Below, piece after piece: positions 59,124-62,210 of a stretch of DNA of 64,000 bases (the stretch's first letter is position 1; every line of letters starts with the position of its first letter). Location of the stretch: NCBI RefSeq assembly GCF_021533215.1, contig NZ_JAJNKA010000012.1, forward strand, positions 1 through 64,000, in the 5' to 3' direction. A program made the position numbers and the translations under genes. The notes below the pieces were generated by a model. That model was not told the DNA's origin, did no database searches, and saw only the letters and a program-made list of their open reading frames with translations. The stretch is from Portibacter lacus. GTDB lineage: Bacteria; Bacteroidota; Bacteroidia; Chitinophagales; Saprospiraceae.

Positions 59124-60182
59124 CTATCTTGCCATTCTCATTCTTTCCAGCTGATAATATTCTTTAAAAGAAAGCATTTTCTCTAATTCTTCATCCCAAA
59201 GCTTGCTTTTTAAAATCTTAAAAGTATCCTTGATTCTAACCACCGTTACGTATTCACTTAGGATCTTATGTTCCTTTAAAGCCTTAGGCAAGTTGTAATT
59301 CGGAATCGAAGCACTTAAGTGATGAATATGATGAATACCAATATTTCCTGTCAACCATTGAAGCGGCTTAGGTAATTTGTAGTAGGTACTTCCTCTTATC
59401 GCAGAAACTAAGAAATCCCAATTCTTCTTCCAATGCTTGTAAGAAAATTCATGTTGGTGTTGAATGTAGAAAAACCAGAAAGCGATTACAGCAAAAACAA
59501 AGATGAGCATGAATTGGATTAGGAAAAACTCTTTCCATCCGATTAACCAAGCAAGACCGATATAAACTGCAGCAATTAAAAAGTTGTTTTTAAAAAGCAT
59601 TTTAAGACTGACTCTTTTCACAGCTTTCCACTCCACACCTAGTCTATTAGAGATTGCGAAGTAGTAAATAGGAGAAATAACGAAAAGAACTAAAGGAGTT
59701 CTTAATAATCTATATTTAAACTTGCCCCATTTGGACATGCTTCTGAATTCATTTGTGGTTTTAAAAGGCACATCTCCGATGTCTCGTGTTTCCAATTGTC
59801 CAGAATGAGCGTGGTGAAAATTATGCACTTTTGCCCAATATTTAAATGGAAGTGAACTGAAAATACTGCACGTCCAACCCACAATTTCGTTCCAACGCTT
59901 CGAAGTTAGGAAAGATTGGTGCCCACAATCGTGTTGAATAATAAAAATTCTTACCAGAAAAAAACCATTAATAACGCCAAGGCCGAGCGTGATCCAGATG
60001 GACCAACTTAAACTATAGTACATTAAAACCCAAAGCGCAATAAATGGAATAAATGAAGTGATGATTTGCATCACAGCCTTAGTATTATCGGGGATCTTGT
60101 AGTTTTCGATAATCTCTTTCCAGTTTTTTAATCTGGATTTTATTTCGTCATCTATTTTGTTTGGGCTAGTTATTTTTTTCAT
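59124..60182 (-). CDS. Fatty acid desaturase
   Basis: 352 residues, a di-iron membrane desaturase. The three histidine boxes are present: 'HDCGHQSF', 'HNFHHAHSG' and 'HHIHHLSASIP'. Several membrane helices (about 48-90, 160-240) separate them. Such enzymes put a double bond in acyl chains of membrane lipids, adjusting fluidity, for example in the cold; position of the bond is not predictable here. There is no linked electron donor. It is divergent from the tRNA-Gln gene. Confidence 0.9.
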   Translation of the reverse strand: MKKITSPNKIDDEIKSRLKNWKEIIENYKIPDNTKAVMQIITSFIPFIALWVLMYYSLSWSIWITLGLGVINGFFLVRIFIIQHDCGHQSFLTSKRWNEIVGWTCSIFSSLPFKYWAKVHNFHHAHSGQLETRDIGDVPFKTTNEFRSMSKWGKFKYRLLRTPLVLFVISPIYYFAISNRLGVEWKAVKRVSLKMLFKNNFLIAAVYIGLAWLIGWKEFFLIQFMLIFVFAVIAFWFFYIQHQHEFSYKHWKKNWDFLVSAIRGSTYYKLPKPLQWLTGNIGIHHIHHLSASIPNYNLPKALKEHKILSEYVTVVRIKDTFKILKSKLWDEELEKMLSFKEYYQLERMRMAR

Positions 60183-60288
60183 AAAATGTATTCTTTCTAA
60201 TAAGGTAAAGGTAATTAAAACGAATATGTTCTACGAAGAGATATAAAAAAATTTGAATAAAGGAATACGAAAATTCAAAATAATGTTT

Positions 60289-60296
60289 TAAATTTG
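60289..60296 (+). promoter_or_regulatory. Candidate -7 element for tRNA-Gln
   Basis: TAAATTTG fits TAnnTTTG and ends 18 bp before the mature tRNA 5' end. The leader includes the palindrome CCGTTAACGG (60301-60310). No -33 TTTG at the usual spacing. Confidence 0.45.
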
Positions 60297-60314
60297 CACT
60301 CCGTTAACGGAAAA

Positions 60315-60385
60315 TGACCCATGGTGTAATGGTAACACTACGGTTTTTGGTACCGTCATTCAAGGTTCGAGTCCTTGTGGGTCAA
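60315..60385 (+). tRNA. tRNA-Gln(TTG)
   Basis: A full cloverleaf folds: acceptor TGACCCA with TGGGTCA, D arm GTG-TAATGGTAA-CAC, anticodon arm ACGGT-TTTTGGT-ACCGT with anticodon TTG, T arm CAAGG-TTCGAGT-CCTTG. CCA is not encoded. A strong terminator follows 9 bp later. The 3' end of this gene is duplicated downstream. Confidence 0.95.
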
Positions 60386-60429
60386 CAAATCAAGTCCTAT
60401 TGAATTTAGTTTCAGTAGGGCTTTTTTGT
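60374..60429. repeat. tRNA 3' end plus terminator, original copy
   Basis: 56 bp running from the T-arm (CTTGTGGGTCAACAA) through the terminator. It matches 60549-60604 at 55 of 56 positions; the first 15 bp recur again at 60720-60734. Confidence 0.9.
60394..60427 (+). terminator. Intrinsic terminator of tRNA-Gln
   Basis: An 11-bp stem (with two G-T pairs) from GTCCTATTGAA and TTCAGTAGGGC, a 6-nt loop and six T residues. The same terminator recurs at 60569-60602. Confidence 0.85.
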
Positions 60430-60452
60430 ATTTAATACTATTCAGTTGAAAA

Positions 60453-60563
60453 TCCCACTCGGACTCGAACGCCACCCATCCTGCTGATTTGCAGCAGGTT
60501 CTCTCCTTATTCCGCTTACAGCGAAATTGCTATGCAACACTCGTTCTGCTTGTGGGTCAACAA
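60453..60563. repeat. Structured unit 1 downstream of tRNA-Gln
   Basis: Starts with an inverted tRNA-like T-arm segment (CCCACTCGGACTCGAACGCC), then hairpin CCTGCTG-ATTTG-CAGCAGG (60480-60498), a 10-nt linker, hairpin ATTCCGCT-TAC-AGCGAAAT (60509-60527, one mismatch), and ends AACACTCGTTCTGC joined to CTTGTGGGTCAACAA. Unit 2 has the same plan. Transcription is not shown; it could be RNA or a DNA-level element. Confidence 0.7.
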
Positions 60564-60604
60564 AGCAAGTCCTATTGAATTTAGTTTCAGTAGGGCTTTT
60601 TTGT
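60549..60604. repeat. tRNA 3' end plus terminator, duplicate copy
   Basis: Copy of 60374-60429 with one substitution, lacking the tRNA 5' part. It follows directly on structured unit 1 and overlaps its last 15 bp. Confidence 0.9.
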
Positions 60605-60627
60605 TTTATGTGATAAAGAAATTAAAT

Positions 60628-60734
60628 TCCCACAAGGACTCGAACGCCTCCGCAGCCGCAAGATATACTTGCGGTTCCCTCGTTATTTTAACGCTGTTAA
60701 AATTAAAACACTCGTTCTGCTTGTGGGTCAACAA
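60628..60734. repeat. Structured unit 2 downstream of tRNA-Gln
   Basis: Starts CCCACAAGGACTCGAAC (exact reverse complement of the tRNA-Gln 3' part), continues ...GCC, then hairpin CCGCAAG-ATATA-CTTGCGG (60656-60674), a 10-nt linker, hairpin ATTTTAAC-GCT-GTTAAAAT (60685-60703), and ends AACACTCGTTCTGC plus CTTGTGGGTCAACAA. Stems differ from unit 1 but stay paired. Confidence 0.7.
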
Positions 60735-61172
60735 TAAAAAACAAAAGCTCTGCATTACACAGAGCTTCTAAAATCTTAAAACCTTTTTAACCAAATAAAA
60801 CTACAATATAGAGGCTGCCCTTAATAAAAATGACAGCCTCTACGTCATTGCTAAAATTAATGGAAGATCATATACGCTTGTAAAAAAAACTTCCTTAATT
60901 TTATTAAAAACTCATTTGTTAAAATGAGCTGGGAATATAAAAAGCCTAATTAAAAGCCTAATCTTAGAAATCAATTATAAAACATAATTACTTGCTATAT
61001 TTCTAATCATAGCACAAATATACGGGAGCTTATCCGCCTGGAATATCCCCCATATGGGCCATATTTTTAGTTGTAAGATTATTTCTAAATGATTCTAAGT
61101 AACTTGGTAGAGAAAGGAGGTTGCCTTGCCTAAGAAACAACCTCCATAAAATATAACCCCAATTTGCAATGT
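60735..61172. other. Gene-free spacer with several inverted repeats
   Basis: No gene is seen. Hairpins: AAGCTCTG/CAGAGCTT (60745-60767), TAGAGGCTG/CAGCCTCTA (60809-60842), CTCATTT/AAATGAG (about 60911-60928) and GGAGGTTG/CAACCTCC (61116-61145), the last suited as terminator for the minus-strand gene ending at 61173. CCCATATGGG (61049-61058) is a palindrome inside a wider AATAT...ATATT dyad. Confidence 0.55.
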
Positions 61173-62210
61173 CTAGTTTATCACTAATAACCGTTTGTTT
61201 TCTGTTTTGTCACCTTCCTTATTTTGGAATTGTAGATGATATACTCCTGGCGTCAAATTCTTTACATCTATTTGACTACCGTTACTAACATTTGAATTCT
61301 GTGAAACCAAAGTTCCATTAGCATTATAGATGCTTAGCTGGTTAGCCGAACCTTTTAACATAGTAGAAACGGTAAATCTATCTGATGTAGGATTCGGATA
61401 AATAGAAACATAACTCATTTCAAAATCAACGCTTCTTACTTCAGAATCTCTTCCTTGTCCATCATTTAAAATGCTTTTTACTTTATAGAAAGCTGTTTTT
61501 GATAATTCCTCACTTATTTGATCATCAAGGAATGAATATTGACCACCATCAAAAGGATTCTTATTCGCTTCTACCGTTGCAATGGTTTCAAAAGTTATAC
61601 CATCTAATGATCGTTGAATTTCAAAATATTTTGATTCATCATATGCTTCAACTTCCCATTTAACAGCTACATTTTCATGTTCTTTATTTGCTGTTATGCC
61701 GGAATTCTGAGCACTAAATACACCACTTGAAAACCCAAATCGGGAAGTCTCATCTGTTCCTGAATTTCCGCCTTGTATGACCGATCCTGGAACTACATTG
61801 ACCTGAAAGCCATTTCTAGCATCTCTATATTGATTAGCATTATTTCTTTTTACAGGAATACAAATTTGTGCCCCACCACCATCATTATCAATACTAGGAA
61901 TATTGTTAATGAGCGTACCTTTTATAACATTATCAGCAAATGGATCTTGTTCCCAATAAAAGAATTCACTATTAAATCCCTCTATTCCTGCAAGGTCAAA
62001 TTCTACCTTACTTAATGTTACTTCCACAGCCAATGGTTTAATAGTTACGGCTAAACCATCTTCTGCAATTAAAGTGAAACAAGCGCTACCATATGTTTTC
62101 ATCATTCCTGGTCTTTCCAGTTTTGCATTTGTCAATGCTACATCTTGAGCTGAAATTGAGCCACCTGCAAGTAGTAATGCAGCCGTCATTATTTTTATAT
62201 ATTTTTTCAT
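61173..62210 (-). CDS. T9SS-sorted exported protein of unknown function
   Basis: 345 residues from the ATG at 62210 (MKKYIKIMTAALLLAGGSISAQ); the frame extends to 62270 but that leader lacks signal character. The first half (about 23-190) is unrecognised beta-rich sequence; a fibronectin-like stretch follows ('VAVKWEVEAYDESKYFEIQRSLDGITFETI', about 200-270), and the C-terminus ('SIYPNPTSDRFTVSTM' to 'NKRLLVIN') is a type A T9SS sorting domain. It is 103 bp downstream of the M36 gene, with a strong hairpin between them, so co-transcription is doubtful. Confidence 0.8.
   Translation of the reverse strand: MKKYIKIMTAALLLAGGSISAQDVALTNAKLERPGMMKTYGSACFTLIAEDGLAVTIKPLAVEVTLSKVEFDLAGIEGFNSEFFYWEQDPFADNVIKGTLINNIPSIDNDGGGAQICIPVKRNNANQYRDARNGFQVNVVPGSVIQGGNSGTDETSRFGFSSGVFSAQNSGITANKEHENVAVKWEVEAYDESKYFEIQRSLDGITFETIATVEANKNPFDGGQYSFLDDQISEELSKTAFYKVKSILNDGQGRDSEVRSVDFEMSYVSIYPNPTSDRFTVSTMLKGSANQLSIYNANGTLVSQNSNVSNGSQIDVKNLTPGVYHLQFQNKEGDKTENKRLLVIN

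Follow-up and report, generated by a model that had tools for sequence, protein, structure and literature searches.

The window analysed here is a stretch of 64,000 nt from Portibacter lacus (assembly GCF_021533215.1, contig NZ_JAJNKA010000012.1, positions 1 to 64,000 of the forward strand). It contains an intact tRNA-Gln(TTG) gene followed by an array of two units, the parts of which are listed in Table 1. Each unit has at its centre a hairpin element, here called E, flanked on the left by the host T-arm in inverted copy and on the right by the tRNA 3' edge in direct copy, and the first two edge copies extend into the tRNA trailer and a terminator-like hairpin.

Table 1. Features of the array behind tRNA-Gln(TTG); positions are those of the window.
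Feature	Position	Strand	Evidence and remarks
tRNA-Gln(TTG), intact host gene of the array	60315..60386	+	ARAGORN; Rfam tRNA 61.7 bits
tRNA 3' edge, trailer and terminator-like hairpin (60392-60423), copy 1	60374..60429	+	
Unit 1 left arm, inverse of the tRNA-Gln T-loop and 3' T-stem (60365-60381)	60454..60470	+	15/17 identical
Unit 1 element E	60471..60548	+	Model R1 71.7 bits; one of the model's seven seeds; hp1 60480-60498, linker 60499-60508, hp2 60509-60527, hp3 60527-60537, end CACTCGTTCTG
tRNA 3' edge, trailer and terminator-like hairpin (60567-60598), copy 2	60549..60604	+	55/56 identical to copy 1
Unit 2 left arm, inverse of the tRNA-Gln T-arm (60365-60381)	60629..60645	+	17/17 identical
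Unit 2 element E	60646..60719	+	Model R1 72.6 bits; also a seed of the model; hp1 60656-60674, linker 60675-60684, hp2 60685-60703, no hp3
tRNA 3' edge, copy 3 (15 bp)	60720..60734	+	CTTGTGGGTCAACAA
Last hairpin, AAAGCTCTG..CAGAGCTT	60742..60770	.	Terminator-like on the - strand only (scan)

A first-pass annotation, made from the letters of the window alone, had described a 56-bp repeat of the tRNA end plus terminator, a third occurrence of its first 15 bp, and two units of the same plan between the copies. Both the repeat and the third occurrence were recovered; of the 15 bp shared by all three edge copies 13 nt are tRNA, the first two copies lie within the 55/56 duplication, and the array has a period of 175 and 171 bp. 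The order of parts is shared between the units as described, but unit 1 alone has a third small hairpin (TTGC-TAT-GCAA). Re-derivation from the letters gave the same first stem of 7 bp with a 5-nt loop, four of the seven positions being compensated between the units, and the same pair of similar 10-nt linkers (TTCTCTCCTT / TTCCCTCGTT). The second stem has the 8 bp and 3-nt loop ascribed to it, with four of eight positions compensated, but also one C.A mismatch in unit 1 that had been omitted. The inverted T-arm-like blocks are likewise present, and cover the T-loop, the 3' T-stem and four acceptor bases of the adjacent tRNA-Gln. About 3e-8 exact 17-nt inverses would be expected within 600 nt, assuming equal base use, and the left arms score 13 and 17 as inverses, compared with 9 and 10 for the best of 300 arm shuffles. 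Rfam returned the tRNA plus five sub-threshold matches only for the array region, and the RtT family (RF00391) gave no match up to E 5 at 59800-61400. A degenerate reverse-strand tRNA with a long variable arm was considered and dropped, as its arms make no T-stem by eye.

E also exists as scattered copies that carry no tRNA sequence. The first-pass annotation had made its proposal hinge on further copies in related genomes with stems that keep pairing, and a covariance-model search of relatives returned many such copies. Model R1, built from seven copies including the two units of the window, found at least 28, at least 29 and at least 30 copies in three Portibacter genomes at E≤1e-3, and at least 33, at least 31 and at least 42 matches at E≤1 (150 candidates scored per genome); the cluster analysis below was run at E≤1e-3 and omits the 19 of 106 matches with E above that value. 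A DNA search of the genus also found copies of the core away from tRNAs. In a Saprospiraceae sample 15 of 150 genomes were positive at E≤1e-3, two of them Portibacter, a pattern scan of genome contigs found five stretches, two of them in P. marinus, and phage records gave no match. Some copies of E stand in core arrays of 72-75 bp and others in arrays of 160-260 bp. In the third genome several copies have near-identical flanks on both sides (L084, L092, L093, L094, L096-L099), and part of the E copy number of this genome therefore reflects a larger repeat.

At two sites E was found alone inside coding genes, where comparison with intact paralogues showed about 10 bp replaced and no inverted arm. 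Because these insertions carry no inverted arm, E is taken to be about 75-80 bp long with the inverted arm not part of it, and the ends of E in unit 1 were inferred from the same insertions. The units do have the tRNA-derived inverted ends that had been attributed to them, but these ends derive from the target and lie outside E.

Clusters of E lie within 300 bp of a tRNA gene in 3/16 cases in the window genome (P 2e-5; 2/15, P 0.0012, without the window itself) and in 4/10 cases in P. marinus (P 8e-8; 3/10, P 1e-5, without a generic copy at tRNA-Leu(GAG)), the expected shares being 0.34% and 0.44%, respectively. None of the 27 clusters of the third genome, which is assembled in 190 contigs and has about the same copy number, is near a tRNA. 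The earlier suggestion of a mobile hairpin element that targets the tRNA end is thus supported by dispersed insertion and by enrichment at tRNAs in two of three genomes, but 46 of the 53 clusters in all three genomes lie more than 300 bp from a tRNA.

Units were also sought beside other tRNA genes, as had been suggested, and were found at Leu(CAA), Cys, Gly, Leu(TAA) and Asp. The arrays of the window genome are at Gln, at Leu(CAA) (four units of 260 bp) and at Cys, and those of P. marinus at Asp, Leu(TAA) and Cys, plus one at a tRNA remnant; there are two units at Gln and one to four at the other tRNA loci seen. Three cases were added by eye. One is a single unit at tRNA-Gly, which model R1 scores at only 15.3 bits (E 0.033); the second, at Leu(TAA), is truncated; the third stands on the 5' side of tRNA-Asp and is seen in the window genome as well as in P. 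marinus. The 5'-side units at tRNA-Asp have the opposite orientation and come with copies of the 5' half of the tRNA and of its promoter flank (L077:5340-5800, L184:840-1040). In the window genome, each 260-bp period of the Leu(CAA) array contains two E cores that differ from each other (L066:5080-5970). The tRNA remnant (GGTTCGAATCC...CACAGCC), which was not called by ARAGORN and seems to have lost its 5' half, is followed by three units (L078:5800-6360).

In most cases the left arm corresponds to the particular tRNA that was hit. When the left arms of 17 units were scored against the inverse of their own tRNA and of 46-47 other tRNAs, the own tRNA beat all others for ten; five were matched or beaten by one other tRNA, which for three of these was the same tRNA-Leu(CAA) of the sister species, and one by six. 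The Leu(GAG) copy has an arm that does not come from its tRNA, 31 others scoring at least as high. In a scan of 38 Saprospiraceae tRNAs, a partial set chosen in part because E was near, the inverse scored above all 30 shuffles at eight tRNAs, all of which have units or a truncated unit; three unit-free tRNAs tied with the best shuffle, and the inverse at tRNA-Gly, only 7 nt long, failed the shuffle test. In G156, a genome of another genus, the T-stem of tRNA-Gln differs and the left arms follow it (CCCATTAGGACTC, compared with CCCACAAGGACTC following the tRNA-Gln of the window). In another genome, G115, a unit lies between two tRNA-Gln-like 3' ends with terminator (L174:560-790); no tRNA was found in the 1301 nt examined, of which about 550 nt are upstream, and the array is an orphan. 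These results bear on the idea that a tandem tRNA-Gln duplication simply decayed and that the hairpins in its gap are unrelated. One related genome does have a tandem tRNA-Gln pair with a 221-bp period, but duplication would not be expected to yield the inverted arm, which is seen again at other tRNAs, and the content of the gap is a defined family also found elsewhere, away from tRNAs; such decay is therefore a highly improbable origin for the array.

Across 88 copies of E (78 distinct), in an alignment that was itself fitted to the covariance model and includes units of the same array that are not independent of each other, 92.5% of cells were paired (65.7% when shuffled) and the covariation score was 0.61 (0.18 when shuffled; reached by 0 of 500 shuffles). 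Of five measures, three place the pairing and covariation of both stems above shuffles; the other two, the number of pairs changed on both sides (12, shuffled 11.2) and of further pair types (38, shuffled 37.0), were not above shuffles in the same 88 copies. A closing helix between linker and right arm reaches 8 bp in some copies and is weak overall, with a mean of 9.75 compared with 9.20 when swapped (5 of 500 reach 9.75) in 59 of 63 copies that were hand-picked from 88 and 36 matches, the four without a recognisable linker having been dropped. Folding z-scores of the two units, by single-base shuffles, were modest at -2.1 and -4.3 on the + strand and -1.2 and -2.4 on the - strand.

Stems that vary while pairing persists would suit small regulatory RNAs cut from read-through tRNA transcripts, their structure under selection, as in the role proposed for RtT and tRNA-linked repeat (TLR) RNAs, and so would the tRNA-Cys array common to the two species, in which the stems differ by eye. 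Dispersed REP-type DNA can covary too, however, and most clusters of E are away from tRNAs, the folding scores are modest, and a terminator scan placed a terminator-like hairpin ahead of each unit. Among E. coli TLRs, transcription and binding to Hfq and CsrA are reported for three RNAs of rRNA operons, but the available text of the same 2021 paper describes TLRs as so far without known function and the tyrT claim as retracted (PMC8144298); Northern signals are given for two RtT-family RNAs near Actinobacillus tRNA genes in the portion consulted of PMC4986893. Overall, a regulatory RNA is considered an unlikely explanation of the units.

E-free sites corresponding to filled ones were found in relatives. 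The tRNA-Gln of both relatives has no unit, one of the two stretches containing a run of N. The spacer between tRNA-Gly and tRNA-Leu is short and E-free in both relatives, and in the window genome it contains a single E between the copies of an exact direct repeat of 32 bp; to the left of E stands GGGATTC, which is the Gly T-stem inverted. The duplicated segment is clean only at Gly because terminators differ between copies within the arrays, and the inverted arm sets the junction apart from a simple target-site duplication. By eye, the native-looking terminator stands only behind the last edge copy at tRNA-Gln, where the last hairpin resembles the tRNA-Gln terminators of both related genomes.

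The position of that terminator, and the direct repeats of the tRNA 3' end that flank each unit, would agree with tiny cassettes integrated site-specifically at the tRNA 3' end by a tyrosine recombinase, in the manner of integrons or of island attL/attR. At tRNA-Asp, however, the native-type terminator is tRNA-proximal (by eye), the opposite of Gln, and a unit sits on the 5' half of the gene; different tRNAs are hit within one genome with differing cores, and the units contain no ORF of at least 60 aa except a 79-aa frame that crosses the repeats. Integration of this kind is judged very unlikely.

No active transposase is tied to E. Matches to PF01797 at E≤1e-3 numbered three in the window genome and zero in the two relatives, and around the one Y1 gene that was checked in the window genome (L063:1489-1959) no E was found within 1.5 kb. 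This gene is IS200-like, with PDHIH and YIMDQEEHH motifs, and resembles subclass 1.2 as described in the accessible part of PMC6006769. One Portibacter relative has 35 matches, some of them fragments, of a family of proteins of about 234 aa that gave no match in the other two genomes (L203-L222), and five gene copies of this family were seen interrupted by E. The family has a Y1/RAYT-like predicted fold (AlphaFold mean pLDDT only 59), and among its first 29 Foldseek matches, which are IS200/IS605-type transposases and one TnpA-REP, query TM was 0.29-0.39 and two were at E≤0.001. From its sequence, the HUH motif is apparently lost, having been replaced by DNQWE-like letters.

TLRs were first described in E. 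coli in 1978. They are treated as a named family in PMC8144298, which in the part consulted gives the length of the copied tRNA end as 18-19 bp, and rttR of E. coli is counted among sRNAs with a predicted REP in the text available of PMC12306157. The array of the window is like TLRs in having units in tandem immediately after a tRNA, each closed by a copy of the tRNA 3' end, in a hairpin-rich core, in its place inside a tRNA or rRNA operon with one to five units per locus, and in its period, the E. coli tyrT/rttR period being 178 bp. In a scan of 27 E. coli K-12 genes (26 tRNAs and one 5S in seven regions, a partial set), lysV, argQ, argZ, argV, tyrV and tyrT were followed, 116-160 nt downstream, by a direct copy of 18-19 bases of their own end, and for argY such a copy lies further down the arg operon. 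The inverted T-arm is a further likeness: it is found in each of the tyrT/tyrV repeats at their 178-bp spacing, and at tyrT, tyrV and lysV it scored above 60 shuffles 51-60 nt behind the tRNA. At argV and argQ an inverse at the same place was not above shuffles (9.0 vs 9.5; 6.5 vs 9.0), at argZ and argY the inverse was not resolved, and serV (10.0 vs 9.0) and 5S (9.0 vs 8.5) were slightly above shuffles at other positions, which counts against the specificity of the inverted T-arm. The array differs from TLRs in lacking RtT homology, in a copied end that is of the same kind but shorter (13 tRNA nt plus trailer), and in a core that is dispersed in Saprospiraceae, whereas the E. coli core occupies a median of three places per genome (E≤1e-5, in 4695 of 5426 genomes). 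Those three places are read here as the tyrT array itself; in Klebsiella, the matches to that core fall at the tRNA-Tyr pair, with purU adjoining in both records.

With REP and REPIN sequences E shares short palindromes in many dispersed copies, tandem clusters that include flanking DNA, as reported in the accessible portion of PMC3116915, and insertions inside RAYT-type genes, for which the part consulted of PMC6006769 gives a parallel. The published RAYT-gene insertions keep the reading frame, whereas those of E run into a stop. E differs further in having two to three hairpins per 75-80-bp unit and in the absence of a GTAG/GTGG/CGTC tag from the 88-copy consensus (62 model positions, not the outer ends). 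No active RAYT was linked to it in genome searches and one neighbourhood. Genomic islands likewise have a direct repeat of the tRNA 3' end; the repeats here enclose no integrase and cargo but units of about 175 bp without plausible genes, there is an inverted T-arm, and several tRNAs are hit by one family.

The region is probably a two-unit TLR-type array, made by a REP-like hairpin element that entered the tRNA T-arm, with the edge and flank duplicated and the tRNA left intact. E would be a non-autonomous mobile element whose point of entry into tRNA genes is the T-arm, which also forms a hairpin; the short inverted copy might come from a template switch on this hairpin in the course of insertion or repair. 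Duplication of the tRNA edge and flank at insertion would leave an intact tRNA upstream, and slippage or unequal recombination could add further units as tandem duplications through the edge repeats, after which their stems would drift with pairing kept.

TLR arrays of E. coli are already known; the inverted T-arm in TLRs and the occurrence of TLRs in Bacteroidota are what is added here, and no earlier description of either was found in a search of REP/RAYT and TLR papers, many available only in part (e.g. PMC3733652, PMC4986893, PMC9897764, PMC2817692, PMC3116915, PMC12306157), whose scope largely excluded subscription and older TLR papers. It is conceivable, if somewhat short of probable, that the TLRs of the two phyla share an origin in which a hairpin element enters the T-arm, gains an inverted copy and duplicates edge and flank; the same process would then have produced the E. 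coli TLRs long ago, with the inverted T-arm as its overlooked signature. With the same architecture, a likely source in a dispersed hairpin element, and empty and filled sites in Portibacter, the origin of TLRs becomes testable. The arrays suggest a possible way for a mobile element to exploit tRNA genes while leaving them intact, and if the shared origin is true, essential tRNA genes would be open to colonisation without harm.
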